The notes under the pieces are model-generated. The model was not told the DNA's origin and made no database searches. It worked only from the letters and a program-made list of their open reading frames with translations. Shown here piece after piece: positions 2,589 through 56,773 of a stretch of DNA of 64,000 nucleotides. Made by a program: the position numbers and the translations under genes. The stretch's first letter is position 1, and each line of letters begins with the position of its first letter. The DNA comes from an uncultured Erysipelotrichaceae bacterium (lineage in GTDB: Bacteria > Bacillota_I > Bacilli_A > RF39 > UBA660): positions 1 through 64,000 of the forward strand of contig CADANC010000001.1 of the NCBI GenBank assembly GCA_902789225.1, given 5' to 3'.

Positions 2589-3450
2589 AATCTCCTTTAT
2601 TACTAAATTTCATAACTTTAGCACCAGTTTTTTCTCTTTGTTTAACAGATTTAATTAGACCTAAAGATTCACCAAATAATAGCATACTAGCCTTATTTAA
2701 TATCATATATATTTCAGTATTCTCTTCCGCAACAGTTTCATATCTATTTAAAGATTTAAATACCCTTCCATGTAAAGGTTTAAATTTATCTATTATTTCA
2801 GACATATCATCATATTGAATAGATGTATTAGGAACAATTGTACCTCTAACATAATCTCCTCTTAAAAAGTAAGTGAAATAAGCTAAATCATAAACACCAG
2901 CTTGTTCAAATAAATTATCCCATTTACTAGTATCACCAACACTATTACAAATAGCTTCTAATCTTTGTAATTTTTCTTTAGTACACATTTTGTCTAAACC
3001 TATATCTTTAAAAGAAAGTATATGAGCATTTCCCTCTACACCAGGTACTTCATTAATAACATCTAATAAGATTCTATTATATAATTCTTCATATTTAAAA
3101 CCAGGAAACTTATATGGATTAGAAAAAACATAAGTCTGATAATCATTTAAAGTATCTACTCTATTACCAATCTTATCATATTCTTTTCTTATAGAAGTAG
3201 AATTCTTAGTATTAATGAAAAAATCTTTTTTACTATTAATAGAGTTATCTTTAATAAATTTCATAAGATCTTTTTTAGAATAATTTCTACTACTAGCTAA
3301 ATCCTTCCCATCAATAATAACATTTTCAGGACCTACTTTAGTATTAATAGAAATATTATCTTCTAATCTTCTAAAATTTACTAACTCAATTTTAGCATTA
3401 CTTATTTTCTTTCCATTCTTACCTTTATTTATAATTGGTAGAATTAACAT
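2572..3450 (-). CDS. Conserved hypothetical protein
   Basis: About 292 residues, soluble, no signal peptide or membrane segment, no motif I recognise. The longer frame starts at 3474, but AGGCGGG lies just before the ATG at 3450 and is inside the longer frame, so 3450 is preferred. It overlaps tcdA by 17 bases at the 3' end, so the two are translated from one message starting downstream of the 6S RNA gene. Mixed alpha/beta composition with many Lys/Asn residues, as expected from base composition. Function unknown. Confidence 0.6.
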   Translation of the reverse strand: MLILPIINKGKNGKKISNAKIELVNFRRLEDNISINTKVGPENVIIDGKDLASSRNYSKKDLMKFIKDNSINSKKDFFINTKNSTSIRKEYDKIGNRVDTLNDYQTYVFSNPYKFPGFKYEELYNRILLDVINEVPGVEGNAHILSFKDIGLDKMCTKEKLQRLEAICNSVGDTSKWDNLFEQAGVYDLAYFTYFLRGDYVRGTIVPNTSIQYDDMSEIIDKFKPLHGRVFKSLNRYETVAEENTEIYMILNKASMLLFGESLGLIKSVKQREKTGAKVMKFSNKGDYDVAA

Positions 3451-3504
3451 ATCTATCCCGCCTCTCGGTCTCACTATTATACCACAAAAAGCTTATAAAA
3501 CAAA

Positions 3505-3690
3505 CAAAAAAAGTCAGAAAATAGAGTTCATCAACGATAAAACCTGTTACGTTTGTACAGGTGGGTGAACATATGCATATCTTCAGGATCCCTAATTTAA
3601 TAGGTCTTCAACACGGATAAGCAGCTCCGTTCTCCCTTATCGTCACTTTAGTCGGTTTTATATGATCATGAACGTCTATATCTGACAACT
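3505..3690 (-). ncRNA. ssrS: 6S RNA (SsrS)
   Basis: Noncoding stretch of about 186 bases between aspS and tcdA, the place where Bacillus keeps its 6S-1 RNA. The two ends form a long imperfect closing stem: on the minus strand GTCAGAtataGACGTTCAT at 3685-3667 pairs with ATGAACTCTATTTTCTGAC at about 3531-3513. A central region with a few G/C-rich short stems follows, and the 3' side ends in TTTTTTT. Length, closing stem, terminator and position all fit a 6S RNA that binds the sigma-A RNA polymerase. The class is inferred from these features; I could not run a covariance model. Confidence 0.75.
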
Positions 3691-3702
3691 TAAATATACC
3701 AT

Positions 3703-3731
3703 ATTATAATAATAATTTCAAGATGCTTGAC
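3703..3731 (-). promoter_or_regulatory. Probable promoter of the 6S RNA gene
   Basis: A perfect TATAAT (minus strand, 3708-3703) lies about 13-18 bases before the predicted RNA 5' end. The -35 region (TCAAGC near 3730) is weak. Confidence 0.45.
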
Positions 3732-4330
3732 TACTCTACCTCGCTTACCTTAATAATACTATGGTAGTGTCCTACTCCATTAAGTTTTATTTTTAACCTA
3801 TAATTCTTTTTTTCATGAGGAGCTAACTCATCAACTAAAACTATATATTTATCATCAATTAAAGTATCTTTAATATTTCCACTGTTTCCATTAATTTCGT
3901 AATTAACTAAACTATAATCAACTAATTTATCACTACAATTATCTAATTTAATTAAATCATCATCTGTTTTTAAATAAATGTAAAACCTATTATACTTATT
4001 ATCATTATTAAGAATAGATAATTCATAAGAATACTCTTTATCATCATAAATACTAATAGTATTTTTAACACCTTTATCATCAACTTCATACCTAATAGTA
4101 AGATTATCAACATTTTCAACACTCATATTTAATGAATCAATATCAGTAAATATAGAAATCCCAATTACAAAGAACATAACAATAAAACAAATAACAAGAA
4201 TAATAGTATAACGTCTTTCTTTTTTGATTCTTTTAATATTATATTCAACATTTATAGAATTATTCTTTAATATTTGATCTTCATCCAAAGTATAATTAAT
4301 AGTTTTATTATTAGGTAATACTTTCTTCAT
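3731..4330 (-). CDS. Membrane-anchored hypothetical protein
   Basis: 199 residues. A basic cytoplasmic N-terminus of about 38 residues is followed by one membrane helix (IILVICFIVMFFVIGISIF, about 43-61) and an acidic, beta-rich outer domain of about 135 residues. No signal-peptidase site is obvious, so it is probably an N-in single-pass protein. It has its own GGAGATAATT ribosome site and lies after the aspS terminator, so it is expressed separately from the tRNA synthetase operon. No recognised family. Confidence 0.6.
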   Translation of the reverse strand: MKKVLPNNKTINYTLDEDQILKNNSINVEYNIKRIKKERRYTIILVICFIVMFFVIGISIFTDIDSLNMSVENVDNLTIRYEVDDKGVKNTISIYDDKEYSYELSILNNDNKYNRFYIYLKTDDDLIKLDNCSDKLVDYSLVNYEINGNSGNIKDTLIDDKYIVLVDELAPHEKKNYRLKIKLNGVGHYHSIIKVSEVE

Positions 4331-4356
4331 AATTATCTCCTAACATAATTATACAA

Positions 4357-4386
4357 TAAAAAAGAAGATAATAAAATCTTCTTTAA
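4357..4386 (-). terminator. Terminator of the hisS-aspS operon
   Basis: Minus strand AAAGAAGATttTATTATCTTCTTTTTT forms a stem of about 9 pairs followed by T residues, just after the aspS stop. Confidence 0.8.
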
Positions 4387-4390
4387 TTAA

Positions 4391-5710
4391 TTATGGTTCT
4401 AATCTATTAGGTCCACGGAATAAGAATTGAGTTTCTTTAACACTAGGAATATTTAATAATAGCATAGTAAGTCTATCTACTCCTATAGCAAATCCACCAT
4501 GTGGAGGACATCCATGCTTAAAGAAATCTAAGTAGAATTCAACATCTTTTCCTAATCCTTTACTCTTAGCATTCTTACAAATTTCTTCATATCTATGTTC
4601 TCTTTGAGCTCCACTAGTAATTTCTACACCTCTCCAGATTAAATCGTATCCTTGTAAAACACCATTTTCATCTCTCATATGATAGAAAGCTCTCTTATCA
4701 GCAGGATAATCAGTTACAAATAAGAATTCTGAATTAAATTTATCCATTGCTAATTTAAATGTAAGTTTTTCAGCCTCAGTAGTAAGATCTGTTTTCTCAC
4801 TATCATCAACTTTATAACCATATCTTTCTTCTAATTCTTTATAAACATCACTTAAAGCCATTTTAGGAAATGGACATTTAGGAACAATAATCTTAGTTCC
4901 AAACATTTTTTCAATTCTATCTCCATATTTTTTATCTAACTTTTCTAAAGCATAAGTTAACATCTCTGCTTCTAAATTCATAACATCATCGAATGAATCA
5001 ATATAAGAAAATTCAAGGTCAAATGAAGTAAATTCAGTAGCGTGACGAGAAGTATTAGAATTCTCTGCTCTAAAGCAAGGAGCTACTTCAAATACATTTC
5101 CAAATCCAGCAGCAATTGCCATCTGTTTATAAAATTGTGGACTTTGAGCAAGATATGCTTTTCTATCAAAATATTTTACTTCAAATACTTCACTACCAGA
5201 TTCACTAGCAGCCCCTATAAATTTAGGAGTATGAATCTCAGTAAAATCATGATCATATAAATACTCTCTCATATATCTAATAAAATCACTTTGTACTTGG
5301 AACATCATTACATTCTTTTCACTTCTTAAATCGATATATCGATTGTCTAATCTTGTATCTAAATTAACAGTAGAAATATCTTTATAATTGAAAGGTAATT
5401 CACCCTCATTTCTACTAGTAACAATTATTTCACTAGGAATAATTTCCATACCATTTAATTTAACTTTAGGAGCTTCCATCAAAGTACCAGTAACTTTAAT
5501 AGTAGATTCAGCACTTAACTCATCAACTATCTTAACAAGTTCAGCATTCTTTTCTTCACTCTTTTCAATAGTAATTTGTACTTTACCAGTTTCATCTCTT
5601 AATACAATAAATTGTACCCATTGTAAGTTTCTTACACTATCAACAAAACCAGATACAGTTACTTCTTTTCCATAATGCTCACTTAACTCTTCTAACTTAA
5701 TTCTATTCAT
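4391..5710 (-). CDS. aspS: Aspartyl-tRNA synthetase, archaeal/eukaryotic-like short type
   Basis: Charges tRNA with aspartate. Residues 1-105 form the OB-fold anticodon-binding domain; the rest is the class II catalytic core with motif 2 (APCFRAENSNTSRH, about 215) and motif 3 (GGFAIGVDRLTMLLL near the C-terminus). At 439 residues it lacks the large GAD insertion of the normal bacterial enzyme (about 590 residues) and matches the archaeal-type AspRS found in some Bacillota. It overlaps hisS by 8 bases and has AAAGGAAAG before the start. Such enzymes can be discriminating or can also mischarge tRNA-Asn; the specificity cannot be read here. The normal bacterial AspRS sits at this locus in Bacillus, so gene replacement in place is likely. 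Confidence 0.93.
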   Translation of the reverse strand: MNRIKLEELSEHYGKEVTVSGFVDSVRNLQWVQFIVLRDETGKVQITIEKSEEKNAELVKIVDELSAESTIKVTGTLMEAPKVKLNGMEIIPSEIIVTSRNEGELPFNYKDISTVNLDTRLDNRYIDLRSEKNVMMFQVQSDFIRYMREYLYDHDFTEIHTPKFIGAASESGSEVFEVKYFDRKAYLAQSPQFYKQMAIAAGFGNVFEVAPCFRAENSNTSRHATEFTSFDLEFSYIDSFDDVMNLEAEMLTYALEKLDKKYGDRIEKMFGTKIIVPKCPFPKMALSDVYKELEERYGYKVDDSEKTDLTTEAEKLTFKLAMDKFNSEFLFVTDYPADKRAFYHMRDENGVLQGYDLIWRGVEITSGAQREHRYEEICKNAKSKGLGKDVEFYLDFFKHGCPPHGGFAIGVDRLTMLLLNIPSVKETQFLFRGPNRLEP

Positions 5711-7031
5711 CTAACATCTTTCCTTTCATTAATTCATCAATATCAACATCATCTTCTATACCAGAATTTAATTTTTCATCTAAGTAATAGATTAATGATT
5801 CACAACCAATAACTTCTTCTTCCTTAGTTGAATTATTCTTTATAGTCATCTCACCATTTTTTAATTGTTCACTATTTAAAACACATATATATTTAGCATT
5901 CAATTTATCAGCTTTCTTAAATTGTGATTTTAAACTCTTACCAGTATATTCAGTATCAACAATATAACCAGCCATTCTTAACTCATCTGCATAATATAAT
6001 GCACTCTTCTTTTCATCATCATTAACATAAAGTAAGAATAAATCAATAGAATCAATTATAGGTAATTCAACTTTTTCAGCTTCAACTGCATCTAATATTC
6101 TTCCTATTCCAGATGCAAATCCAACACAAGCTGTTTCAGGTCCATCTAATTGACTAACTAATCCATTATAACGACCACCAGCACCAATTACATTATTAAT
6201 ACCCATATTCTCATTAATATCTTCTATTTCAAATACAACGTGATTATAATAGTCAAGTCCCCTAACAATTTTAGGATCAACCTCATAATTAATTTGTAAT
6301 AAATCTAACATTTCTTTTAGATCTTCAAATCTCTTTTTACTCTCTTCATTTAAATAATCAATTGTAGTAGGAGCATTTTTAATAATAGGATTATCTGCAT
6401 CTACCTTACAATCTAAAATACGAAGAGGATTCTTTTCTAGTCTTTCCTGACAATCTTCACATAAATCTTTAATATGAGGTTTAAAATAATCAATTAAAAC
6501 TTTTCTATAATTATCTCGAGATTCTTTATCACCTAAACTATTAATTTTAACTTTTAAGTCTTTTAAACCAATCATTTTATATACGTTTATAGCGATTGAA
6601 ATAGTTTCAGCATCACTAATAACATCATCACTGCCAAGTATCTCTACACCAAATTGTGTAAGTTCTCTATCTCTTCCACTTTGAGGTCTTTCATATCTAT
6701 ACATTGTTCCATTATAGTAAACTTTGATTGGTTGTACAGGATCACCATACATTTTATTTTCAATAAAACTTCTGACTACTCCAGCAGTTCCTTCAGGACG
6801 TAGAGCTATTCTTCTTCCACCTTTATCTTCAAAATCATAAGTCTCTTTACTTACAATATCAGTTGATTCACCAATACCTCTATGGAACAAATTAAAATCT
6901 TCAAAAATAGGAGTTCTAATATAATTACAGTTATATTTCTCCATAACCATATCAATTATCCCATCAATATACTTCCATTTCTTAGCTTGAATTCCAAAGA
7001 TATCATTAGTTCCTTTTTGCTTTTGTATCAT
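5703..7031 (-). CDS. hisS: Histidyl-tRNA synthetase
   Basis: Class II synthetase that charges tRNA-His. Near the N-terminus KGTNDI, then motif 2 region YRYERPQSGRDREFTQ-like (seen as YRYERPQSGRDRELTQFG), the histidine signature LDYYNHVVFE (about 265-275) and a C-terminal anticodon domain. The open frame extends to 7094, but the first 21 codons run through the leader terminator; GGAGGAATTTTT directly before the ATG at 7031 fixes the start, giving 442 residues. It is the first gene of hisS-aspS and is controlled by the T-box leader upstream. Length and motifs are normal. Confidence 0.95.
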   Translation of the reverse strand: MIQKQKGTNDIFGIQAKKWKYIDGIIDMVMEKYNCNYIRTPIFEDFNLFHRGIGESTDIVSKETYDFEDKGGRRIALRPEGTAGVVRSFIENKMYGDPVQPIKVYYNGTMYRYERPQSGRDRELTQFGVEILGSDDVISDAETISIAINVYKMIGLKDLKVKINSLGDKESRDNYRKVLIDYFKPHIKDLCEDCQERLEKNPLRILDCKVDADNPIIKNAPTTIDYLNEESKKRFEDLKEMLDLLQINYEVDPKIVRGLDYYNHVVFEIEDINENMGINNVIGAGGRYNGLVSQLDGPETACVGFASGIGRILDAVEAEKVELPIIDSIDLFLLYVNDDEKKSALYYADELRMAGYIVDTEYTGKSLKSQFKKADKLNAKYICVLNSEQLKNGEMTIKNNSTKEEEVIGCESLIYYLDEKLNSGIEDDVDIDELMKGKMLDE

Positions 7032-23044: not shown

Positions 23045-23710
23045 TTATATCGATATTTTATCATTAATATTATCAATAATATAATTTATATCTTCGATAG
23101 ATTTACCTATATTAAATCTACCATTTCCTACTGGATAAAATACTGAATAACATTTATATTTTTTACCATTAATATCTTTTTCAAATTCTTTTTTTCTACA
23201 CTGAGAAACCGAAATCTTTTCATTTAAAACAATTGATGATACTTGATTACCAAATAATACTATAACTTTAGGATTAATTATTTCAATTTCTCTTTCTAAT
23301 AAATGTAAATATTTCTTATATACACTATCAGGAATGACTCTAGCATCAATCTGAGTACATTTACCTAAATTAGTAATAAAGTATCTATGTTTTTTTACAT
23401 TATTATATACTTCACTTGCAAATTCTTCAGTCCAATCTGTTCCCTTAATAGACTTAATTTTACTATATATATCTTTATCTAACAAATTCAATTCATAAAA
23501 TAAATCCCAGATATTTTTAGTTCCTATCCAAGGAGATTTTATACCTTTCCATGATTTAGAAGAAGCAATATTTTTACCAGTAGGATTCATAAATACAAAA
23601 CATATATCAGGATTATCTATACATCCACCATAATAAATAGAATCTAATTCTTTAGCCCCATACTTTAATTGAAGTTTATCATACTCTATCTTTAACTCAT
23701 CCAATGTCAT
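23045..23710 (-). CDS. Uracil-DNA glycosylase superfamily protein
   Basis: 221 residues. Motifs of the UDG fold are visible: ICFVFMNPTGKN (about 30-45, position of the active-site motif in family 4/5-like enzymes), KHRYFITNLGKC, IINPKVIVLFGNQVSSIVL (about 140-160) and YPVGNGRFN near 195 (position of the C-terminal motif). Enzymes of this fold remove damaged bases from DNA, but many members in accessory regions have unknown targets. It starts behind AGAGGTATAAA next to the end of the WDGH-like gene and is co-transcribed with it. Confidence 0.65.
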   Translation of the reverse strand: MTLDELKIEYDKLQLKYGAKELDSIYYGGCIDNPDICFVFMNPTGKNIASSKSWKGIKSPWIGTKNIWDLFYELNLLDKDIYSKIKSIKGTDWTEEFASEVYNNVKKHRYFITNLGKCTQIDARVIPDSVYKKYLHLLEREIEIINPKVIVLFGNQVSSIVLNEKISVSQCRKKEFEKDINGKKYKCYSVFYPVGNGRFNIGKSIEDINYIIDNINDKISI

Positions 23711-23711
23711 T

Positions 23712-24242
23712 TTATACCTCTTTATTAACCTTCATTTTTACATGTGATTGATTGATGCCTTTTTTCTCTTTTATTGACATTTTCATAATAGGTTTTAAAG
23801 AATCATCAAGATTAGAATTATTCACAATCAAATCTAAAATATCATCTTCTGTATGCCCTGAATTAATCAAATCACTAACATAATTAATTCTTTCATTTTT
23901 TTCATCTTCACTATACCCTTCATATCTTGGACCATAATCTTGTAATTCAATATGAGAAAATGCATCTAAATATTTTAATTTAAAATGATAAGAAGCAGGT
24001 CCTAACGGAGTATAGATGCCTACCATAAAATCACCATCAAACATAGGATCATTTTCTTCATCATAATGATTTAAAGTTTTAAAACATAATTTTGGACATA
24101 ACGAAGAAACAAGACGAAATAATACTAATTCTCTTCTATAAAGATCTTCAAACGTATGATATACATCACTTACTTTTTTTACACTTTTTCCACTACTTTT
24201 ATGTTCTAAAATTTCATCATTTATTTGCTCAATTGTTTTCAT
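23712..24242 (-). CDS. WDGH-like phage-type protein
   Basis: 176 residues resembling proteins with a C-terminal WDGH signature seen in phages and prophages of Bacillota. Seen: SDVYHTFEDLYRRELVLF, then FDGDFMVGIYTPLGPASYHF, then the signature position GPRYEGYSEDE (YEGY in place of WDGH). The last 50 residues are helical and charged. Function of the family is unknown. Its company (uracil-DNA-glycosylase-like gene, unknown small genes) suggests cargo left by a phage or other mobile element. Confidence 0.5.
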   Translation of the reverse strand: MKTIEQINDEILEHKSSGKSVKKVSDVYHTFEDLYRRELVLFRLVSSLCPKLCFKTLNHYDEENDPMFDGDFMVGIYTPLGPASYHFKLKYLDAFSHIELQDYGPRYEGYSEDEKNERINYVSDLINSGHTEDDILDLIVNNSNLDDSLKPIMKMSIKEKKGINQSHVKMKVNKEV

Positions 24243-25185: not shown

Positions 25186-25214
25186 AAAAAAAAAGCAAGA
25201 TATAAAATCTTGCT
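25186..25214 (-). terminator. Terminator of the NACHT operon
   Basis: AGCAAGA / TCTTGCT stem, 7-base AT loop, followed on the minus strand by TTTTTTTTT. Confidence 0.85.
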
Positions 25215-25231
25215 AATTATATTTATATTAT

Positions 25232-25576
25232 TTATGATATTATTTTAAATTCTATACCAACTATTTTAGAATTAATTACAACTTCTTTTCCAAATATATT
25301 ATAAAAAGCATTTATAAACTCATCTTTTGAATAATTAAGTGTATTATTAATTGAATTATTACTATTCCACAATTCTTCTAAATCAGAGTAAATATATTTA
25401 TTAATAACTTCGACTAAGACTTTCTTTTTATCATTATCTACCACAGTAAAAAGAATTTGATCACCTTTTTTTATATCTTTTGATTTATCATTCAACAAAC
25501 GATATTCAATTGTTTTTTTACCTGACACAATATCCTCATAAACAGTATCATAAATTCTATACTTATATTCTTTCAT
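25232..25576 (-). CDS. ASCH (PUA-like) domain protein
   Basis: 114 residues, one ASCH domain: YDTVYEDIVSGKKTIEYRLLNDKSKDIKKGDQILF is the typical opening, in which the Gly-Lys-Lys-Thr-x-Glu-x-Arg cluster forms the cleft. ASCH domains bind RNA or modified nucleosides; some are amidohydrolases of N4-acetylcytidine. GAGGAGTGATTAT precedes the ATG. It starts 4 bases after the CYTH gene and is the last gene before the terminator, so it belongs to the NACHT operon. Confidence 0.7.
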   Translation of the reverse strand: MKEYKYRIYDTVYEDIVSGKKTIEYRLLNDKSKDIKKGDQILFTVVDNDKKKVLVEVINKYIYSDLEELWNSNNSINNTLNYSKDEFINAFYNIFGKEVVINSKIVGIEFKIIS

Positions 25577-25580
25577 ATAA

Positions 25581-26162
25581 TCACTCCTCTGAAGTTTCTT
25601 CTAATTCAATTTCAGCTTTTTTTACAAAAAAATCATTATTTTTAAAAGGAATAGAATTATCAATGATAACTGATTTCATTTCATCTAAGGAATTATAAAA
25701 TCTATTAGCATAGCGACATTCATCTTCTATCTCTATATAAATATGTTTATTATTAACATTTTGAACAACAAATTCATCTTTATCAGTCGCAAAGACATAC
25801 ATATGATCATTTATTCTTATTAATTCTTCAAAACCTAATTGTTCAAATAATAATTTCGAATTATCAATATTATCTATTTCTACTTTAACTTGCGCTTGTT
25901 TTATAATTTCCTTATTATCATTATACTCTTTATGTTTATAAACTAAAAACTTTGTATCTTTCTTTTTTTCAATAATATTTCTAATTATAATACACTTATT
26001 TAACATTGATAAATAATCATCTTCCCTATCATTTTTATTAATTAAATAAATATCATTATAATCAAATTCTTCTCTTTTTTTGAAGCCTTTACTCTTAAGA
26101 ATTTTAATTAACTCATCTAAACTAGTATCAACCTCTACAGTTATTTCATTTTCATTATTCAT
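25581..26162 (-). CDS. CYTH-like triphosphate-tunnel protein
   Basis: 193 residues. The N-terminal strand EITVEVDTS corresponds to the ExExK start of CYTH/TTM enzymes, though the Lys is not in place. Further alternating strands follow with acidic and basic residues (KFLVYKHKEY, QAQVKVEID, HIYIEIEDEC) and helices LDELIKILKSKGF and SKLLFEQLGFEELIR, in the order seen in CyaB/thiamine-triphosphatase relatives. Such proteins bind or hydrolyse triphosphates or make cyclic nucleotides. The incomplete metal-binding motif could mean a binding-only role. Fourth-gene context: 26 bases after the giant gene, 4 bases before the ASCH gene. Confidence 0.55.
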   Translation of the reverse strand: MNNENEITVEVDTSLDELIKILKSKGFKKREEFDYNDIYLINKNDREDDYLSMLNKCIIIRNIIEKKKDTKFLVYKHKEYNDNKEIIKQAQVKVEIDNIDNSKLLFEQLGFEELIRINDHMYVFATDKDEFVVQNVNNKHIYIEIEDECRYANRFYNSLDEMKSVIIDNSIPFKNNDFFVKKAEIELEETSEE

Positions 26163-26188
26163 TATTCAACCCTTCTCTTAATTACTAA

Positions 26189-29100
26189 TTAATGCACTAT
26201 TTCAATTTCATAATATGATTTTAATATACTTATGCTTTCTTCAGATATACTATCTAGCATTTTTTCTTTAAATTCTATTTTTTCAATCTTATCAGTAGGA
26301 TTATATTTTAAAGCGCCTAATATATTATCTGTTAAAAGCCATTCTGTTTTTTGTTGCATTATATCAATCGTTTTTCTAACAGCCTTTTCATATGCATCAT
26401 TATATAGATTCTCATCTATATATTTCCTAAAATCATTTTCTTTTAATGAATCAAAAAACTCATCAACAGAACACCCATCTAATAAGGTAATAACAATAAA
26501 ATCAATAAGCATATCCTTTGTTTTATCATTCCATACTAAATTACATCTATACTCAAAAGGCTTATTATTCCAATATGATAAAACTAGATAATAATAATAT
26601 TTGTCTTCTTCTTTTGCATTACTAATTAAAGTGTTTTTATTATAATTATTTAACAAATAATAATCGGCCTCAGATACTTCTGTCTTACTAGAATGAAGAT
26701 TTTCTTCTTTATATCTTTTTAAACTAATATTAGCTGGAATTATAGATTTATCTAAGATACTAATGTAATCTAGTGTATCTAATAATCTTTTCAAACCTTC
26801 TTGAGAATTATCTCTCAATAGTTTTAAAGTATAATATAACTCTTCATATTTATCAAACAAATCTTTTTGAAAACCAATTGATTTTACAAACCTTTTTTTC
26901 TTAAAATAACGTCTCATTTTATCAGTATATTTACACAAACTTTTTTTGCTTCCAGATATACTAAGTCTATACAAGTTTTCTTGTGTTTCATCAGTCGCAA
27001 ATAAAGCCTTAATATATTTCAAAGTATTCTTTTTAGACTTTTTATTATTCTTTTTAGCAATATAACTAAGAAAAGCATTTTTAGAAATCTTTGTATTAAA
27101 GAATTCTTCATTTAATATGCCATAGATATCCAACTGATAAAACAAGATAGGAAACCAATTATATCTATATTCTTCTTTTTCTAATGATTCTACTATTTTA
27201 TTAATTTCTTCAATAATTATTTCTTTTTCAACAGTATTTGTATTTAGAGATTCTATAGTTAAACAAAAATCATTAAAATCTTGATAGAAATTAGAAGTAA
27301 ATAACTTTGTTAAATTAAACAATTTATAAACATCATTAATAACTTCATCTAGCGGATTAATAAAACTATTATTTTGATTCATTATAAGAGAAATTTGATT
27401 TTCCGTTAGATATTTAGAATATTCTTCTATCTGAATAAAATCTCTAACAATTATATTATTTTTTAATAGAATATTAATTAATAATTGTATTTCTTGCTTA
27501 GACTCCAATCTTCTATATCTTTCAATTCTTTGAATCAATTTATAAACATATTCTATAATTCTTATATTATAAGGTGAATAATTTTCACTATTTTTAATAG
27601 TATTATATTCTTGAATTACTCTTCCTTCTACATAATCAACCATATCCTGATTTACTTTTATTATATCTTTCAATATATATAATTCATCATGCTCTACTAA
27701 AAGAGTTTCTATATCATCTATTAAATAAGGAAATGCAATACCAAATACAATTAATCTTTTATAATCACTAAAAGACTCCGAATTAGCTTTAATAATATTA
27801 AATGTTTGTTTAACATTACCATTTGAAATAGTATCTAAAAGTATTTTTCTTAGATCTATAGTCTCATCTTTTGAAATAATATAATCACAATGCTCTTCTG
27901 GTATTTCTTTAGTTCTGATTATTTCCCTATACAACAAATATTTTGTATATCCAATATCATAATTAGATGGATAAGAAGCATTAATCATTTTTCTAACATA
28001 CTGCTTTATAACCTCTTCATCATTAGTATCTAATTTTTTTTCATATTCAAGATTTTTAATAAAAATATATTCCTTTAAATCATATGATCTTAATGTGTTT
28101 TCTACCATTCCATCTTTGTTATATTGTGTATAGTTTTTCTTGAAGACGTCTCTATCTTTATACATTTTTTTTGCTTCTTCCAATAAAAACAAATCATGTA
28201 AACAGTTTAAATCTTTTAAATTAAGTATTAATCTATCAAAGCATATTGGATTATTATCCTCTAATATTTTTCTTTGAAGAGATAATGAAGCTTCTTGTTT
28301 TTCATCTACCCTAGGTATTTTTAAGAATCTCTTTTTAAATAAATCTTCTCTATTTAATAATAAAGAAAAATATAAGAAGTCAATACCTAATAGAGTATAT
28401 GTACTTAATAACTGAGCTATATCTATATATTTTTCCTCTGGTATAATTTTTTCTTTATCAAATTCATAGGCCTTTATAAAATCTTTTCTACAATAATGCA
28501 TTAAAACTTTTTCTTTTTCTTCTCTATATAAAGATTCATAAAATGATTTATTTTCCAATGATTCATTTAACAATTTATCTTCCACAAAATAATCTAAAAC
28601 TGGTACCACTTCTATTTCTCTATCTTTTACTTCTTTTATTTTAAAAGATATCTCATCATAGTGAGGAATCACAAGAACATCATCTAATCTCAATTCTCTC
28701 ACATCACATTTTAAGTGATTTTCTTTACATAATAAATTAGTTGGAATAATAGTCATTCTTTTACCAAAATTTGTAACATTAACAGATCCACGTATATAAT
28801 AATTCGTGTCATTTATATTATCTTTATTTGATGAAGCAAAATAATATACATCAACAATTAAATGTAATGGAGATAAAAAATATAAATCAATTTTTTCATC
28901 ATCAGAAAGTGTTATTAATATAGAATTTAATACTTTTTTTAACTCTTTATCTATGTCTTTAAAATCAGATAGATTAATATCTCCATTACAATAAAATGGA
29001 TTATTAGAACCTAATGTTTTCAATAAATTAAGTCTACTAATTGGAGAACAATTTGTATTCTCTAATACTTCAATTATAACTGGCACTAATTCCAATTTTT

Positions 29101-31597
29101 CCTGTTTTGTCAATTCAAAAGATGATAACTCTTTAATTCTATCTAATCTTTCTTCAGATATATTATAATTAATACTTTGTAATAATTCTTTTATAGTATT
29201 TCCATAAACAAGTTCTTCTGTATAATCAAATAATCTTGTTGCTAAATCTACAAATGATTTCTTTTCATCTGATACTTCTGAAGTATAAGGAATTCCTTTT
29301 ATCGCATATAATAAATTATTCTTATTAAGTAATTGAATATTCAACTCTATTCTTTTAATCCATTCAATATAACGATTATCTTCATGCAATGATTCCATTA
29401 GTTTTTCTTCTAATTCTTGATAATAATTAATATTTTTAGATAAGAGTTTTAAATATAAATAAAATTTCAAATCATCTTTAACATCAAAAGCCACTTCTTC
29501 TATATCATGTCTTGTATATGCATAATAAGGATATACTTTATAGAATTCTCTAATATAATTATATTCATCTTCTAATAACTCTTTATAATAATCTTTATCT
29601 GTATCCCAATAAGTAATACTTAATAAATCACTTTTTTCTAATTGCGAAAATATATATTTAAAATAATCAGTATCTAATTCTTTTAAAAATGAAAGAAACA
29701 AATTTATATTAGTTCTAAAATTATTAAATTCTCTATATCTAGTTAAATCTTGAGTAGCTCTAAAGGCATATTTATTAAGCATCTCTCTAATATATTGAAT
29801 TATTTGTAATAATATAGAGTCTTTATCATCACCAAGAATATATTTAATAAAATAATAAATAATGTTATCTCTAAAATTAGCACTTTTAAATCTTAATATT
29901 TCTTCTATTTGCCTTCTTATTAATTCCGATGGTTTATTTTTTAAATAAACATATAAACCAATTAATAAATCTGTTCTACATAATTCTACATAAAAATCAA
30001 TATTATTAGAAAAAGACTCATCTATAACAAAATTTTGTCTTTTCCTAACTTTTCTAGATACTTCAACAGCTAAGTCATGTAGTTGTTTATTCTCTTTAGG
30101 AATACAATTTACTATTCTAAATGTCTTAGTCTCATAATTATAAGAAGAAATATTTGTAACAAATACATATCCAGGAAATAAAGTTATATTTAGTTTACTT
30201 TCATCAGTATATGATACATTTAATGGACCATACTCTGTATCAAGATATAATTGATCATTCTCATAATGAATTTTTCCTTCTAACAAAGTGTTATAAATAA
30301 AGAAATAATCATCCCTCTTTTTTATAGGATTTAAATAACAAATAAATTCATCAAGAGAAAGACAATAATGAAGAATACTAGTAAAATATAGTTTTAATGC
30401 ACTATCTATAGATCTACTTATACTATTAGCTAAGATAATAGCTTCTTGCCTTAAAACATCCTTTTCTTTTTCTAAATAATTTCTAACTAGTTTATTCTTT
30501 CTAAAATTAATAATTGGTCTATTATAAACTATTTGTGGTATTTTTTTCCCATCTACAACTCTATGATAAGCGATAGTTTCTACTGATTTAAAAGGATTCC
30601 ACTTTCTATCCTCAAAACATATATTTTTATACTTAGCTAAATTAGAATATGTTCTATTAAATAACTTTGCATGTAATATGAATATTTCATATTGTTCCTC
30701 TTCGTCAAAAAAATCTAAATATTTTTTAGTACCATCGATTGGAAGAATAGTTAATTTATTAATTGGTAAATTATTCTCTAGTTCTAACAATCTAATCATG
30801 TATCTTGTTATTATTAATTCTGCTAATATATCTCCATTAATCTTTTCTTTTATTAATTTTTCATACCAAATTATTTTTTTATTTAATTCATCTTCATTAC
30901 TATCCAAAAAATATGCATAATACATAGTTCTTAATTTTACTTTTTTCTTCTTTACTATTTCATAGATTTTTCTACCAGACATAGAAAATATATTCTTTAT
31001 TTTTTCTAAAGTATTTGTTGAACTAGCTAAAAAGAACAAATTATCATAATCTTCACTATTTTTCATTATTTTCTCTAACTCAATTATTTTTTCTTGAATT
31101 TTAGTATTAGAACGAATATCTGCATTCTTTAATTTTTCTGTATTTCTTGGAATACACCCTGTATTCTCATAACAAAGTTTTACATAATTAATATATAATT
31201 CATGTTCTTGTAAAGAAATTAAAGAATCATATACTGCATCATCTATATCCATTAAATCATTTAATAATTCTTTATTATCAATAAAAAATTTTTCCTGATA
31301 TGAACGATTAAGAGCATATAATCCATAAATTGTTTTATCTGTTATTTTTTGATTTTTTAAGTATGAAAAGAAAGACTTTTCTAATCTTTCTTTTACTTCT
31401 TCTTTATTGATTAATTTTAATACACCAATAGCAACTTTATAGTCATCCTCAACCAAATCTAAAAATAATAATTCTGCTAAATCAAGATCTTTTGCTGTAT
31501 TAAGTACAGTAGAATAAACATCTTCTTTTTTATTTCCTGATGAAACAACTTTATCAATTTGTTGTTTAGCAAACTCTATTCTTTCTTGATTATTCAA
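26189..31597 (-). CDS. Giant (~1,800 residue) helical-repeat protein of the NACHT operon
   Basis: About 1,802 residues with no signal peptide, membrane helix or recognised enzyme motif. Almost the whole chain reads as amphipathic helices of 15-25 residues with many Leu, Ile, Tyr and Lys/Glu, as in alpha-solenoid sensors. Two short beta-rich, Val/Ile-heavy segments interrupt it (near residues 450-490 with FPGYVFVTNIS, and near 930-1000 with RGSVNVTNFGKRMTIIP and DVLVIPHYDEISFKIKEV), which could be OB-like inserts. The longest frame begins with a GTG at 31606 that is part of the ribosome site AGGTGAAG; a TTG at 31597 is better spaced and preferred. It follows the NACHT gene by about 15 bases. 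A role as the separate sensor or scaffold for the NACHT protein is inferred. Confidence 0.7.
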   Translation of the reverse strand: MNNQERIEFAKQQIDKVVSSGNKKEDVYSTVLNTAKDLDLAELLFLDLVEDDYKVAIGVLKLINKEEVKERLEKSFFSYLKNQKITDKTIYGLYALNRSYQEKFFIDNKELLNDLMDIDDAVYDSLISLQEHELYINYVKLCYENTGCIPRNTEKLKNADIRSNTKIQEKIIELEKIMKNSEDYDNLFFLASSTNTLEKIKNIFSMSGRKIYEIVKKKKVKLRTMYYAYFLDSNEDELNKKIIWYEKLIKEKINGDILAELIITRYMIRLLELENNLPINKLTILPIDGTKKYLDFFDEEEQYEIFILHAKLFNRTYSNLAKYKNICFEDRKWNPFKSVETIAYHRVVDGKKIPQIVYNRPIINFRKNKLVRNYLEKEKDVLRQEAIILANSISRSIDSALKLYFTSILHYCLSLDEFICYLNPIKKRDDYFFIYNTLLEGKIHYENDQLYLDTEYGPLNVSYTDESKLNITLFPGYVFVTNISSYNYETKTFRIVNCIPKENKQLHDLAVEVSRKVRKRQNFVIDESFSNNIDFYVELCRTDLLIGLYVYLKNKPSELIRRQIEEILRFKSANFRDNIIYYFIKYILGDDKDSILLQIIQYIREMLNKYAFRATQDLTRYREFNNFRTNINLFLSFLKELDTDYFKYIFSQLEKSDLLSITYWDTDKDYYKELLEDEYNYIREFYKVYPYYAYTRHDIEEVAFDVKDDLKFYLYLKLLSKNINYYQELEEKLMESLHEDNRYIEWIKRIELNIQLLNKNNLLYAIKGIPYTSEVSDEKKSFVDLATRLFDYTEELVYGNTIKELLQSINYNISEERLDRIKELSSFELTKQEKLELVPVIIEVLENTNCSPISRLNLLKTLGSNNPFYCNGDINLSDFKDIDKELKKVLNSILITLSDDEKIDLYFLSPLHLIVDVYYFASSNKDNINDTNYYIRGSVNVTNFGKRMTIIPTNLLCKENHLKCDVRELRLDDVLVIPHYDEISFKIKEVKDREIEVVPVLDYFVEDKLLNESLENKSFYESLYREEKEKVLMHYCRKDFIKAYEFDKEKIIPEEKYIDIAQLLSTYTLLGIDFLYFSLLLNREDLFKKRFLKIPRVDEKQEASLSLQRKILEDNNPICFDRLILNLKDLNCLHDLFLLEEAKKMYKDRDVFKKNYTQYNKDGMVENTLRSYDLKEYIFIKNLEYEKKLDTNDEEVIKQYVRKMINASYPSNYDIGYTKYLLYREIIRTKEIPEEHCDYIISKDETIDLRKILLDTISNGNVKQTFNIIKANSESFSDYKRLIVFGIAFPYLIDDIETLLVEHDELYILKDIIKVNQDMVDYVEGRVIQEYNTIKNSENYSPYNIRIIEYVYKLIQRIERYRRLESKQEIQLLINILLKNNIIVRDFIQIEEYSKYLTENQISLIMNQNNSFINPLDEVINDVYKLFNLTKLFTSNFYQDFNDFCLTIESLNTNTVEKEIIIEEINKIVESLEKEEYRYNWFPILFYQLDIYGILNEEFFNTKISKNAFLSYIAKKNNKKSKKNTLKYIKALFATDETQENLYRLSISGSKKSLCKYTDKMRRYFKKKRFVKSIGFQKDLFDKYEELYYTLKLLRDNSQEGLKRLLDTLDYISILDKSIIPANISLKRYKEENLHSSKTEVSEADYYLLNNYNKNTLISNAKEEDKYYYYLVLSYWNNKPFEYRCNLVWNDKTKDMLIDFIVITLLDGCSVDEFFDSLKENDFRKYIDENLYNDAYEKAVRKTIDIMQQKTEWLLTDNILGALKYNPTDKIEKIEFKEKMLDSISEESISILKSYYEIEIVH

Positions 31598-31612
31598 AAT
31601 CTTCACCTACTT

Positions 31613-33316
31613 TTATATGATTCCTTCTAATTTTACATCAGATGTTTCTAATTCTTCTTTTTTATCTTCACTAGTCTTTTGTAATTCATGATTAACAAAA
31701 CGATAAGTTTGAAATGATACTTTTTCCATAATATGTAAGTCTAATAATAATCTTATGATATCATCAGAAGCTGTATTAGATAAATTACGATCTTTAATCG
31801 TATAACTAATTACTTCAATAAGTTCACTTCTAGAATATTCTTTTTGATTTAAAGAAATAATATTTTCTAAGTACATTAATAAGTTATCAGCATCTTGTGA
31901 GGCTTTATCTTCTACTTCCCTTTCAATAATAGCATTACGAAATAATATATCAAATTCTTCTACAGTTTTTGGTATATCCTTTCCTCTTAGCATTATAGTT
32001 ATAAGTTTATATAAGCGAAATGGAATTCTTACCATATTCTTAATAGAATCATTACTATCAACTAATTTTTGTACTTTATTAGATAATTCTGTATCTCCGT
32101 TTGTATTATTTTTAATAAAATCTTTAATCTTATTATCATCTAATTGTTCAATAATATAGGTTAACACATTATCAGTAACAGTTATTTTATTAGACTCTCT
32201 ATCAGTTAATATAACTTTTGTTTTCGGATAAGTAGTAATAATGCTATTAATTTGGTTTACCACGTTCTTTTTAAGATCAGTATCATATAATTCATTAATT
32301 CCATCAATATATAAATTAATATAACCATTTTCTAATATCTTTTTAACCATCTCTTCTTTACAATTTAGATGAGTCTTATTACCTATCATTTCTAGAATAT
32401 TATTTTCAACCATGCTAACTTCTCTTAATTCAAGAAAAATTGGAGTTCTACCTTTTGATTCTAGTATATCGGTATATGCTAAATATTTTAAAGTTGTAGT
32501 TTTACCCATACCAGCATTACCAATAATTTTAATCTTACAATTATCATTTTTTCTTATTAATGAAACTAATGATTCCTTAGAATTAGTATTTGTTTGTCTA
32601 CCATCTAAAACTATATATTTTAAATACTTCTCTGAAGCTTCTTTTTCATAATTTTCTTTCATTTCTTTTAAGTATTCTTCAACTCGTGTTTCTTTCATTA
32701 AATCAGTACGATTTATTTCAGTTGCTAATTTTTGTTCATAATGTCCTGCTACTTCTAAATAAAGAATTAATAAATCTCTTACATATTGCCATTCTTGAGT
32801 TGGAGACAACAATCTAACAGAATGAGCTTCTTCATTACGAATATAATATAAATTACCATATACTTTAAACATATCAGAATAATTTTTATAAGACTCAGCC
32901 TTTTTATAGCTAGAGCGTAAATAACCAACTTGTTTTTCATCATCTATCATTTTAAGAGTGTATAAATAATTTGGTATTGCTTGTGAGTTATTTGCACTCC
33001 TATTTCCTGAAGCAGTTCCACGAATAGTATCAAAGTTTTCTGGATCTATCAAGTAAATAAATAATTCTAAATATTGTGCTGTTTTTTCAAATTCTTCTAT
33101 TGAATCAACTTTTTTATTCTTAGCCATATATTCAATTTGATTAACAATAGATTCTTTTAAGCCGCTTAGTCTCTCAATATGTTCACTTAACTTAAGTGCT
33201 TGCTCCAAACAAAAGATTTTTCTAGGAACATCTTCCACAACAAAATCTGAATCTGCTCTACCGTCAACATTTGCAACTTCCAATTCAATAAATTTTTTTG
33301 CTTCTTCTGAAAACAC
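31613..33316 (-). CDS. HEPN-NACHT STAND ATPase
   Basis: About 567 residues. The helical N-terminal domain (1-230) contains RNEEAH at 160-165 in an otherwise hydrophobic helix (YIRNEEAHSV), the RNxxxH catalytic signature of HEPN ribonucleases. The NACHT module follows: Walker A GNAGMGKTTT (about 266), Walker B INLYIDGINEL (about 333-343), sensor segment VILTDRE (about 368) and the helical NACHT tail ending in a winged-helix-like part (YRFVNHEL near 545). The chain stops there: the usual C-terminal repeat sensor is missing and the next gene is a giant helical protein. The GTG at 33316, behind AGGTGATTATA, is the likely start. Domain type is known from antiphage and immune STAND proteins; a defence role here is inference. 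Confidence 0.75.
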   Translation of the reverse strand: MFSEEAKKFIELEVANVDGRADSDFVVEDVPRKIFCLEQALKLSEHIERLSGLKESIVNQIEYMAKNKKVDSIEEFEKTAQYLELFIYLIDPENFDTIRGTASGNRSANNSQAIPNYLYTLKMIDDEKQVGYLRSSYKKAESYKNYSDMFKVYGNLYYIRNEEAHSVRLLSPTQEWQYVRDLLILYLEVAGHYEQKLATEINRTDLMKETRVEEYLKEMKENYEKEASEKYLKYIVLDGRQTNTNSKESLVSLIRKNDNCKIKIIGNAGMGKTTTLKYLAYTDILESKGRTPIFLELREVSMVENNILEMIGNKTHLNCKEEMVKKILENGYINLYIDGINELYDTDLKKNVVNQINSIITTYPKTKVILTDRESNKITVTDNVLTYIIEQLDDNKIKDFIKNNTNGDTELSNKVQKLVDSNDSIKNMVRIPFRLYKLITIMLRGKDIPKTVEEFDILFRNAIIEREVEDKASQDADNLLMYLENIISLNQKEYSRSELIEVISYTIKDRNLSNTASDDIIRLLLDLHIMEKVSFQTYRFVNHELQKTSEDKKEELETSDVKLEGII

Positions 33317-33332
33317 TATAATCACCTACTTT

Positions 33333-33361
33333 ATTATATCTTAATATAGTTTTTTTAACAA
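33333..33361 (-). promoter_or_regulatory. Promoter of the NACHT operon
   Basis: TTGTTA (33361-33356), 17-base spacer, perfect TATAAT (33338-33333) on the minus strand, about 10-15 bases before the ribosome site of the HEPN-NACHT gene. Confidence 0.75.
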
Positions 33362-53823: not shown

Positions 53824-55056
53824 TTAATCTTTTCTAATTAAATGTTCTGGAACCCCATCTTTATAATATTGCTTAACTTCACCTAAAATTAAAGGTCTTA
53901 TATAATCAATTAATTCATCTTTAACATAATTATTTTCTTGATCAATCCATTCTAAAGGAACTTTTTTCTCTAAGTTAGCAATATCATGAATATCATTAAA
54001 TGAAGAATACTTAATTTTATAAGGATTATTACTTACTCTTTCCATAATAACCATCTTTCCAGATTCATTATTAAAAGCAAGTTTTGCTCCATGTTTACCA
54101 ACTTTTTCAGCTTCTCGTAAATCAGTAAGTGATGCTACATGGGCAGCTGCTCTTTGTAAAGATGATAAAATGATAGGTCTAGTCTTAAGTCCTGTCTTTT
54201 CTTTTATTAAATTAGCAAGTACATCTGCACATCCATTTAATTGTTTATGTCCAAAAGCATCTACTCCAACATCGTCTTTTCCCATTTCACAGACAAATTC
54301 ACCAGTAGTAGTTCTAATACCTTCAGAAACAACAATTACTATAGCTGGTTTCTTTTTTGCTAAGGTTCTAACTTTTTCTACAAATTTATCTAAATCAAGT
54401 GGTACTTCAGGTAAGAATATAGCATCTACTCCCTCACAGTCATCACTCTTAGCTAAAGCAGAAGCTGCTGTAAGCCATCCTGCATGTCTTCCCATTACTT
54501 CAACTATAGCAACAGTACTATGTTTAACTCCATAACAAACACTATCTCTAACTATTTCTCTAATTGATGTTGCAATATATTTTGCTGCACTACCAAAACC
54601 AGGACAATGATCAGTAATAGGTAAATCATTATCAATAGTCTTTGGAACCCCTATAAAGTTTTGTCTTCTCTTATTAATTATAGCATAATCACTTAAATTC
54701 TCAACAGTGTCCATAGAATCATTACCACCAATATATATAAATGAATCAATATCATGTTTATCTAAAATATCAAATATTTTTTCATAAATATCAGGATGAT
54801 CTATATAAGTACCTAATTTAAATCTACAAGTTTGTAAATAACTAGAAGGAGTCCGTTTAAGTAATTCCAACGATCTTTTATCAGATAAATATAAATCTAA
54901 ATCAATAATATTCTCCTCTAATAAACCTTCTATACCATTAATCATGCCATATACATGATCATAGCCTAATTTCTTTGCTTCTTCGTATACACCAGCTAGT
55001 GAGGCATTAATAACACTAGTAGGTCCTCCAGATTGTCCAACAATCAAATTTTTCAT
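53824..55056 (-). CDS. pfp: 6-phosphofructokinase, probably PPi-dependent
   Basis: Phosphorylates fructose 6-phosphate in glycolysis. 410 residues, longer than the ATP type (about 320). Motifs: GQSGGPTSVINASL (start), GGNDSMDT at 110-117 (ATP enzymes have GGDGS, PPi enzymes GGDDS), PKTIDND at 138-144 (the Lys favours pyrophosphate) and MGRHAGWL near 188. The Asn in place of the first Asp of GGDD leaves some doubt, but the Lys and overall length point to pyrophosphate as donor. It leads the operon with the Pr6Pr-like and deacetylase genes. Confidence 0.85.
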   Translation of the reverse strand: MKNLIVGQSGGPTSVINASLAGVYEEAKKLGYDHVYGMINGIEGLLEENIIDLDLYLSDKRSLELLKRTPSSYLQTCRFKLGTYIDHPDIYEKIFDILDKHDIDSFIYIGGNDSMDTVENLSDYAIINKRRQNFIGVPKTIDNDLPITDHCPGFGSAAKYIATSIREIVRDSVCYGVKHSTVAIVEVMGRHAGWLTAASALAKSDDCEGVDAIFLPEVPLDLDKFVEKVRTLAKKKPAIVIVVSEGIRTTTGEFVCEMGKDDVGVDAFGHKQLNGCADVLANLIKEKTGLKTRPIILSSLQRAAAHVASLTDLREAEKVGKHGAKLAFNNESGKMVIMERVSNNPYKIKYSSFNDIHDIANLEKKVPLEWIDQENNYVKDELIDYIRPLILGEVKQYYKDGVPEHLIRKD

Positions 55057-55091
55057 ATAATACCTCCATTACATCACAAATTTATTATATC

Positions 55092-55117
55092 AAAAAAGGA
55101 GTATAATGATACTCCTA
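55092..55117 (-). terminator. Terminator after the NlpC/P60 gene
   Basis: AGGAGTAT / ATACTCCT stem, 4-base loop, then TTTTTT on the minus strand. Confidence 0.9.
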
Positions 55118-55124
55118 AATTTTT

Positions 55125-56762
55125 TTATTTTCCTGTATATCTTAATACTCCATCCCATGGGTGTGAATAATAATTTCCAACATCAATTTCTTCACCACTA
55201 GGATCTCCAGTACTACCATTGTAATTATCATGAGCTCCAATTAACTTTCCATTACCAATATACATTTCAGTATGAGAATCTTCATCTAAAACTATATCAC
55301 CAGGTTGTAAATCATTAACATCAGGATCTCCAGGAATCCATTCGAATCCATGTTTAGTTAATTCTTCTCTCATGTCTCCAGTATAAGTTGCTCCTCCAAC
55401 ATCAATTCCAGCATTTTTATATGCAGAAATTACGAATGAAGAACAGTCAAATTGTTTAGTTTCACCCCAACGGCTTGCTTGTGAATAACCATAATCATTA
55501 TCATCAGCAATTTTTTGTGCCCATGCCATAGCATCTTCAGCAACCTTGCCTGATGTAGGATGATAATCTTTAACATTTTCGATACCTTTACTATTAACTT
55601 TATTATTAACAGCTTTATTACTCTTAGAAATAGCACTTAATTCCTTATATTTAGATAAGTCTATGCTTGCAGCTCCGGCTCCAGCACCACCATTCTTAAG
55701 AATTTCATCATATTTATCGAAATTAAATTCTTTAATTTTAGCAATAACGTTAGGTGCATAAGATTCTTCTGGACAATAAGGACCATCATATAAACCATAT
55801 ACAGCTTTTTCATAATCCCAATTCTTAGCACCATCCATGTATCCTTGATATAATCCAGACTTAGAAAGAAGTCTAGCATAATCTCTAATTGAATCTTCAT
55901 CTGAGTCATAAACTCTAAATCCGCTATATTCACCATATCCACAACCTTCAGTCCATTTAATACCAAATAAGTTGTGAGAATTATTATAAACATTAGAAGT
56001 GCCCCAAACACTTTCATATACCATTTGACCAAGTAATACAGAAGGTAAAATACCATATTCAGCACATACTTCCATAACAGTATCCATATGTTCATCAAGC
56101 CATGCTTCTTGTTCAGGAGTAAGGTTAGCTGATTTAGCAGATTCTAAATCACCACCACCTGATTTAGCAGAAACTGTAGAGAAGTCCATTTCTCCAACTT
56201 TAGCAGCAGATCCTGAACCAGCTAAACTTTCATATGTTGGAATAATTACTGTATCAACATGTTCTTTATAATCATCATAAGCTTTCTTAGCACTATCATA
56301 TGCTGATTTCAAAGAACTTTCATTACTAACATTATTCTTAGGATCATCATCGTTATTTTTTGAATGAGCACTATTATACGCAGCTTCAGCATCATCCATT
56401 GTTTTTTTCAAATCTTTTAAATGTTCATTTGCTTTTTGTAAATGCGTTCCCCATTCAGCAGTCATATGAGTTTTAGCATCACTTTTTATAACACTCTCTA
56501 ACTCAGAAATAGCAGCAGAAGCAGTAGATAGATTCCTGCTAACATTATATCCCATTTCAAACAAAGGAGAAAAACCTCCAAAGTTCAAAGCCTGAGCACT
56601 TAATCCTCCACCAGATCCTATTAAAGCATCTGTTGAATCCTTAGTAGAATCAAGTGATTTTCCAACATCTCCTAAAGAAGAGATGAATTCTGCATAATCA
56701 CTTTCTTTAAGATAAGATGATTCTTCACCAATTTTCCATGAAATATTTCCTATACTTGCCAT
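55125..56762 (-). CDS. Exported wall hydrolase: WXG100-like N-terminus, glucosaminidase, NlpC/P60
   Basis: 545 residues. Residues 1-110 are helical with the WXG100/LXG-like size and no signal peptide (ISWKIGEESSY, then two helices, AEWGTHLQ near 110). A helical spacer (to about 195) precedes a glucosaminidase/LysM-type muramidase domain (about 215-350: PSVLLGQMVYESVWGTS, NNSHNLFGIKW, YARLLSKSGLY), then a linker and NlpC/P60 endopeptidase (about 410-545) with catalytic C440 (QFDCSSF), H497 (DSHTEMYIG) and H511. It would cut both glycan and peptide of the wall. Downstream of and co-transcribed with the gene at 56774 (11-base gap). Export by a type VII-like system is inferred. Confidence 0.8.
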   Translation of the reverse strand: MASIGNISWKIGEESSYLKESDYAEFISSLGDVGKSLDSTKDSTDALIGSGGGLSAQALNFGGFSPLFEMGYNVSRNLSTASAAISELESVIKSDAKTHMTAEWGTHLQKANEHLKDLKKTMDDAEAAYNSAHSKNNDDDPKNNVSNESSLKSAYDSAKKAYDDYKEHVDTVIIPTYESLAGSGSAAKVGEMDFSTVSAKSGGGDLESAKSANLTPEQEAWLDEHMDTVMEVCAEYGILPSVLLGQMVYESVWGTSNVYNNSHNLFGIKWTEGCGYGEYSGFRVYDSDEDSIRDYARLLSKSGLYQGYMDGAKNWDYEKAVYGLYDGPYCPEESYAPNVIAKIKEFNFDKYDEILKNGGAGAGAASIDLSKYKELSAISKSNKAVNNKVNSKGIENVKDYHPTSGKVAEDAMAWAQKIADDNDYGYSQASRWGETKQFDCSSFVISAYKNAGIDVGGATYTGDMREELTKHGFEWIPGDPDVNDLQPGDIVLDEDSHTEMYIGNGKLIGAHDNYNGSTGDPSGEEIDVGNYYSHPWDGVLRYTGK

Positions 56763-56773
56763 CTTATCACCTC

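Follow-up and report, generated by a model that had tools for sequence, protein, structure and literature searches.

Four closely spaced genes on the minus strand of a 64,000-nucleotide stretch of DNA from an uncultured Erysipelotrichaceae bacterium (contig CADANC010000001.1; the whole stretch is hereafter the window) raise the question of whether they form one system, and of what each part would do in it. The original prediction saw a four-gene operon in which a HEPN ribonuclease joined to a NACHT ATPase is accompanied by a separate giant sensor, a CYTH-like protein and an ASCH-domain protein. All four open reading frames are present as given, with close spacing and a good terminator at the end. 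The features of the locus are:

33333..33361, minus strand: promoter-like match TTGTTA-17-TATAAT (10/12 positions), plausible in position
31613..33325, minus strand: gene 1, encoding the HEPN-NACHT protein; 570 codons, with GTG 33316 as the probable start
32621..33325, minus strand: HEPN region of gene 1, residues 1-235, entirely helical in the model
32822..32839, minus strand: HEPN catalytic motif R163-N-x-x-x-H168, invariant in 10 homologues
32495..32521, minus strand: Walker A GNAGMGKTT, GMGKTT core invariant
32288..32314, minus strand: Walker B region LYIDGINEL; D341, G342, N344 and E345 invariant
26189..31606, minus strand: gene 2, giant partner and proposed sensor, 1805 codons, start probably TTG 31597
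30617..31591, minus strand: helical-repeat solenoid at the N-terminus of gene 2 (about residues 6-330), modelled fairly confidently
30098..30307, minus strand: first beta domain of gene 2 (residues 434-503), modelled at low confidence with the OB-like order b-b-b-a-b-b
28601..28795, minus strand: second beta domain of gene 2 (residues 938-1002), its strand order OB-like and likewise modelled at low confidence
25581..26162, minus strand: gene 3, CYTH-like, same-strand neighbour judged to lie outside the system
25232..25576, minus strand: gene 4, ASCH-domain, neighbour paired with the CYTH-like gene and likewise judged outside
25194..25214, minus strand: intrinsic terminator 3' of the ASCH gene, 8-pair stem and T run

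The spacing of AGGTG and the positions of ATG in homologues make GTG 33316 and TTG 31597 the likely true starts of genes 1 and 2. With these starts the predicted 15-base gap between the two genes is reproduced, and the predicted numbering of the catalytic residues as R160/H165 holds (R163/H168 counted from 33325, as used here). The CYTH-like gene follows gene 2 after 26 bases and the ASCH gene follows it after 4, and the first terminator on this strand is the one at 25214, with none earlier across the four genes; genes 3 and 4 may be co-transcribed with genes 1 and 2 in the window. The terminator is a good one (5 terminator-like sites observed in the region vs. 0.7 expected). The promoter match exists and is sensibly placed, but it carries no statistical weight because 101 such sites occur against 91 expected by chance. 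No Rfam or tRNA features were found in the window, and PADLOC gave no convincing model for any of the four genes.

A HEPN-NACHT protein and its giant partner

The three motifs named for gene 1 (RNEEAH, GNAGMGKT, and LYIDGINEL) are all present, and the joining of HEPN and NACHT in one protein is supported. Across an alignment of 10 diverse homologues, 20-53% identical to the window's sequence, R163, N164, H168, GMGKTT, and D-G-x-N-E are found without exception, and in the HEPN region the only invariant positions are R163, N164, H168, and Y218. Conservation of RNxxxH had been named beforehand as a test that could refute the prediction, and the invariance of these three residues makes the HEPN signature more than a chance occurrence. 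Gene 1 has the R-x4-6-H motif in a helical domain that defines HEPN: the motif is invariant, and the structural model (pLDDT 78) is all-helical up to residue 232, where the predicted NACHT module takes over. None of the Pfam HEPN models scored above threshold (the best, HEPN_Cthe2314, reached 0.004 in one homologue only), profile search of the HEPN region against the PDB gave chance-level matches only, and the matches listed by a fold search with the whole model were taken up by the NACHT part. That part matches NLRC4, NLRP3, and NOD2 (Foldseek 1.7e-7), and NLRC4 superposes on it with Z 20.6 over 327 residues at 6.1 A. The Pfam NACHT match is sub-threshold for the window's gene 1 (0.0007, 19.9 bits vs. 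a cut-off of 26.7) and exceeds the cut-off in several homologues. By its Walker A and B motifs, winged helix, and NLR-like fold, gene 1 belongs to the NACHT clade of STAND ATPases. As predicted, it lacks a repeat sensor: the chain ends at residue 570, just past the winged helix, and departs from the usual tripartite STAND build in having no C-terminal sensor of its own.

Gene 2 is, as proposed, a separate helical protein of roughly 1,800 residues. A model of its first 1,190 residues, built from three sequences and with a mean pLDDT of 58.9 overall, predicts an alpha-solenoid and two beta domains. Residues 432-505 weakly match the replicative-helicase subunit 7qhs_F (Z 5.9), in what we take to be the OB domain of that subunit. 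No Pfam family matched gene 2, Foldseek found nothing beyond generic solenoids (no match reaching E 0.001), and profile searches of the beta domains against the PDB gave chance-level matches. AcrIIC2, which came up at E 1.4 when profiles of the HEPN region and beta domains were searched against the PDB, was not taken as a real match.

Relatives, putative sensor partners, and neighbouring genes

We searched about 85,000 species genomes with a degenerate DNA pattern that covers Walker A and Walker B and obtained 32 loci, many of them other NACHT proteins. Two are close relatives, both from uncultured Bacilli (MAGs): L022/L040, with 52% identity to the window in gene 1 and 34% in gene 2, and L018/L038, with 46% and 31%, respectively. 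Gene 2 lies directly behind gene 1 in both L040 and L038, so that each of the three giant-partner species keeps a separate partner next to gene 1; the gaps between the annotated ORFs are 6, 12, and 4 bases. The partner has 2,106 residues in L038 and more than 2,090 in L040, where it leaves the contig after 2,093. No other genome among 193 of the window's order, or among 392 sampled in its phylum, holds homologues of the pair, and in the family of L018's host it occurs in 1 of 192 genomes, that of the host itself; the system is therefore rare and patchy. Phages and viral contigs held no homologue of the pair, plasmids gave general NACHT matches only, and peptide patterns run over viral and genome contigs found no close relatives. 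Among the candidates set aside, the viral L003 is a chance match, the viral L041 a weak partial one, and the Chitinophagaceae and most Lachnospiraceae matches (L065-L077, L079-L083; L072-L077 judged less closely) are other NACHT-like proteins in which this HEPN motif and partner arrangement are absent.

The split layout, which had not been recognized from elsewhere, is not unique to the window locus. Eight distant HEPN-NACHT genes (L011, L004, L024, L021, L008, L017, L007, and L009, the last with a shortened HEPN part) are also short and stop near the winged helix, with a separate partner next on the same strand, three of the junctions being 4-base overlaps; their hosts are Bacteroidota, Thiomargarita/Parabeggiatoa, and one Lachnospiraceae genome. 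PPR proteins are rare in bacteria; the L004 partner combines six PPR repeats (PPR_2 1e-42) with the only clear S1 domain among the partners (S1 1.8e-6), and the L007 partner matches PPR_2 at 1e-8. The L004 arrangement, a Cytophagales HEPN-NACHT gene followed by its PPR-S1 partner, occupies positions 3293-6733 of that locus. In one Bacteroidetes genome (L010), a partner-like part follows NACHT in a single chain, and a profile of the distant short partners finds it at 1.2e-11 (best of 200 decoys, 1.4). This position behind NACHT argues that the partner is the missing sensor arm. Sequence homology between the giant and the short partners was sought in three ways and none was found, and it is thus from position and architecture that we infer a sensor role for the giant one.

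The same comparisons bear on the proposal of a four-gene system, in which both small proteins would serve the HEPN-NACHT pair, the CYTH-like one by handling a triphosphate signal and the ASCH one by binding or editing RNA. The single strand, the 26- and 4-base gaps, and the lack of a terminator before 25214 favor it, as does the fact that RNA is the concern of both ASCH and HEPN; moreover, accessory genes are commonly lost or swapped in defence systems. Against it, CYTH homologues (28-54% identical) were found in 19 further genomes from the window's order, a sample in which the NACHT pair is absent outside the window's genome. Many of them adjoin genes reading as rpsI, secA, obgE, ylqF, and other housekeeping genes, and in L060 the CYTH gene is overlapped by an ASCH gene behind it (29%, 7e-9). 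Furthermore, the place behind the L038 pair (genome G566) is taken by an unrelated 264-residue gene and then a glycosyltransferase-like gene, so labelled from a reading of its sequence, and no CYTH homologue matches at E 0.1 in G566 or G567, the genomes of the two close relatives; the 3' evidence is a small sample of one complete flank (L038) and one contig end (L040). The four-gene proposal is accordingly not borne out, and we consider it very unlikely. Since the relatives keep the pair without CYTH and CYTH homologues occur elsewhere without the pair, we take genes 1 and 2 as the unit. Given the 19 order genomes and L060, genes 3 and 4 seem to form a set of their own, apart from genes 1 and 2, and on these sequence comparisons we judge them to be co-directional neighbours, not components.

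The ASCH assignment is solid (Pfam 8e-8, 33.3 bits vs. a cut-off of 21.2). The CYTH-like gene is so named from a sub-threshold cyaB match (1e-6, 28.7 bits vs. a cut-off of 57.95), with support from charged residues of the tunnel type (R61, K76, K78, E144, E146, K181, and K182) that are invariant in its family; in place of the ExExK signature the window has E-I-T-V-E. The second E of ExExK is mostly missing throughout this order-wide family (window 25581-26162; relatives L044-L062). L060 1492-2431 is a small CYTH-ASCH module, with no NACHT gene in the available stretch. The 264-residue gene of L038 (18301-19095) has weak AGOG/HhH-GPD glycosylase similarity (0.003) and is possibly an exchangeable accessory gene. 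A glycosylase-like gene of a different kind lies near the window pair, where a uracil-DNA glycosylase-superfamily gene (UDG 2.7e-7) adjoins a WDGH-domain gene (6.9e-19) at 23045-24242. Elsewhere in the window, positions 54000-58000 have a G+C of 0.32-0.36 (0.20-0.31 in the remainder); an endolysin-like gene of the glucosaminidase-NlpC/P60 type lies there, along with an ORF of 520 residues that matched nothing in Pfam.

Known receptors and rival explanations

Single bacterial proteins that fuse HEPN, STAND ATPase, TPR, and S1 have been described by Anantharaman et al. 2013 (PMC3710099), with Npun_F6454, MED222_16016, and Desac_1927 as examples under Swt1-like HEPN, and HEPN-STAND proteins with cold-shock-like OB domains are also on record (PMC3710099). 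The likeness extends to the predicted HEPN effector, the STAND ATPase, the helical repeats, and, tentatively, the S1-type domains. Compared by description, those proteins are one polypeptide, whereas here the repeat/beta part is its own gene; it is separate in the three Bacilli and the eight distant loci, and fused in L010. In addition, the partner in the three Bacilli is giant, its length ranging from 1,805 residues to more than 2,090. Because the fused form was described in 2013, we regard the window system as a split, giant-partner form of a known kind. NACHT proteins with C-terminal sensors protect Escherichia coli from phages; these bNACHT proteins have a tripartite build in which the sensor lies within the same chain, and the effector of bNACHT25 is a DNase (PMC12169576). 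The window system shares with them a NACHT switch and an N-terminal nuclease effector but would use a HEPN RNase and has a separate partner. Vertebrate NLRs (NLRC4, NLRP3, and NOD2) share the fold of the NACHT module (Z 17-21, about 300 residues), but they are single chains with an LRR sensor and a death-fold effector. The STAND ATPase and large helical-repeat sensor also recall Avs3/Avs4 (AVAST), and Avs4 comes at rank 39 in the structure search with gene 1. Avs sensors, which recognise terminase or portal, share a chain with the ATPase, whereas the window partner is encoded by a gene of its own, and the Avs models of PADLOC gave no match. No description of the split form or of the giant partner was found in the literature searched, which covers the field in part.

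We put at about 60% the probability that genes 1 and 2 encode a two-polypeptide NLR-like receptor, with a HEPN-NACHT effector and switch and a giant infection-sensing partner. We infer the defence role from the HEPN and NACHT domain families; a defence-island setting found no support, the neighbourhoods in the window and G566 looking housekeeping. That absence, together with two adjacent, tightly coupled genes and an RNase effector, would fit a gene 2 whose main task is to inhibit the HEPN RNase, as in a toxin-antitoxin pair, its loss or titration leading to dormancy that need not be phage-triggered; HEPN domains are indeed often toxins (PMC3710099). Such a role fits poorly with fused L010, which has the partner at the usual position of a STAND sensor. 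Known HEPN antitoxins are far smaller than a partner of 1,800-2,100 residues with solenoid and beta domains, and we think this explanation unlikely.

The absent island context would equally suit a housekeeping complex for RNA surveillance or stress, in which the pair would cut aberrant RNA and play no part in immunity, and the OB-like, PPR, and S1 elements among the partners point the same way. The distribution, however, is very patchy, the pair being confined to the window's genome among the 193 of the order and 392 of the phylum sample, and, in the family of L018's host, to that host alone out of 192 genomes; mobile conflict genes therefore fit, housekeeping genes do not, and we hold such a complex to be quite improbable. 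That a stop codon has split a single STAND gene into genes 1 and 2, as a pseudogene or assembly error, might be suggested by their shared frame in the window and L040. The window, however, has two in-frame stops and a ribosome-binding site ahead of gene 2, and the motifs are intact; we reject this explanation, whose probability is negligible, on the out-of-frame junction in L038 and the split state in three species.

A proposed split receptor

If genes 1 and 2 do encode a two-polypeptide receptor, an abortive-infection RNase switch is its most likely mechanism. Gene 1 would supply the effector, a HEPN ribonuclease, and the switch, a NACHT ATPase with a winged-helix end, and gene 2 would substitute for the C-terminal repeat arm of single-chain STAND proteins. 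In a physical complex of the two, the giant solenoid with its two OB-like beta domains would keep the gene 1 protein inactive until it recognised a sign of infection, possibly RNA or ribonucleoprotein. Recognition would let the NACHT domains bind ATP and oligomerise, bringing HEPN domains together as dimers that would cleave RNA and stop the infected cell. The pair is a probable immune receptor in a gut-type bacterium. It is possible, though we offer the idea only tentatively, that across the wider family the HEPN-NACHT switch is constant and the sensor gene is exchanged, between PPR-S1, short helical, and giant RNA-recognising OB-solenoid forms; if true, an RNase switch could be re-aimed through the swap of a whole sensor gene.

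In STAND and NLR receptors a single chain usually carries effector, switch, and sensor, which are therefore hard to study separately. A naturally split receptor, occurring with short, PPR-S1, and giant partners and in one fused form, would allow the sensor to be withheld, exchanged, or titrated. Furthermore, the PPR and S1 domains among the partners suggest, as an idea open to testing, that RNA and not phage proteins is what some bacterial NLR-like proteins sense.
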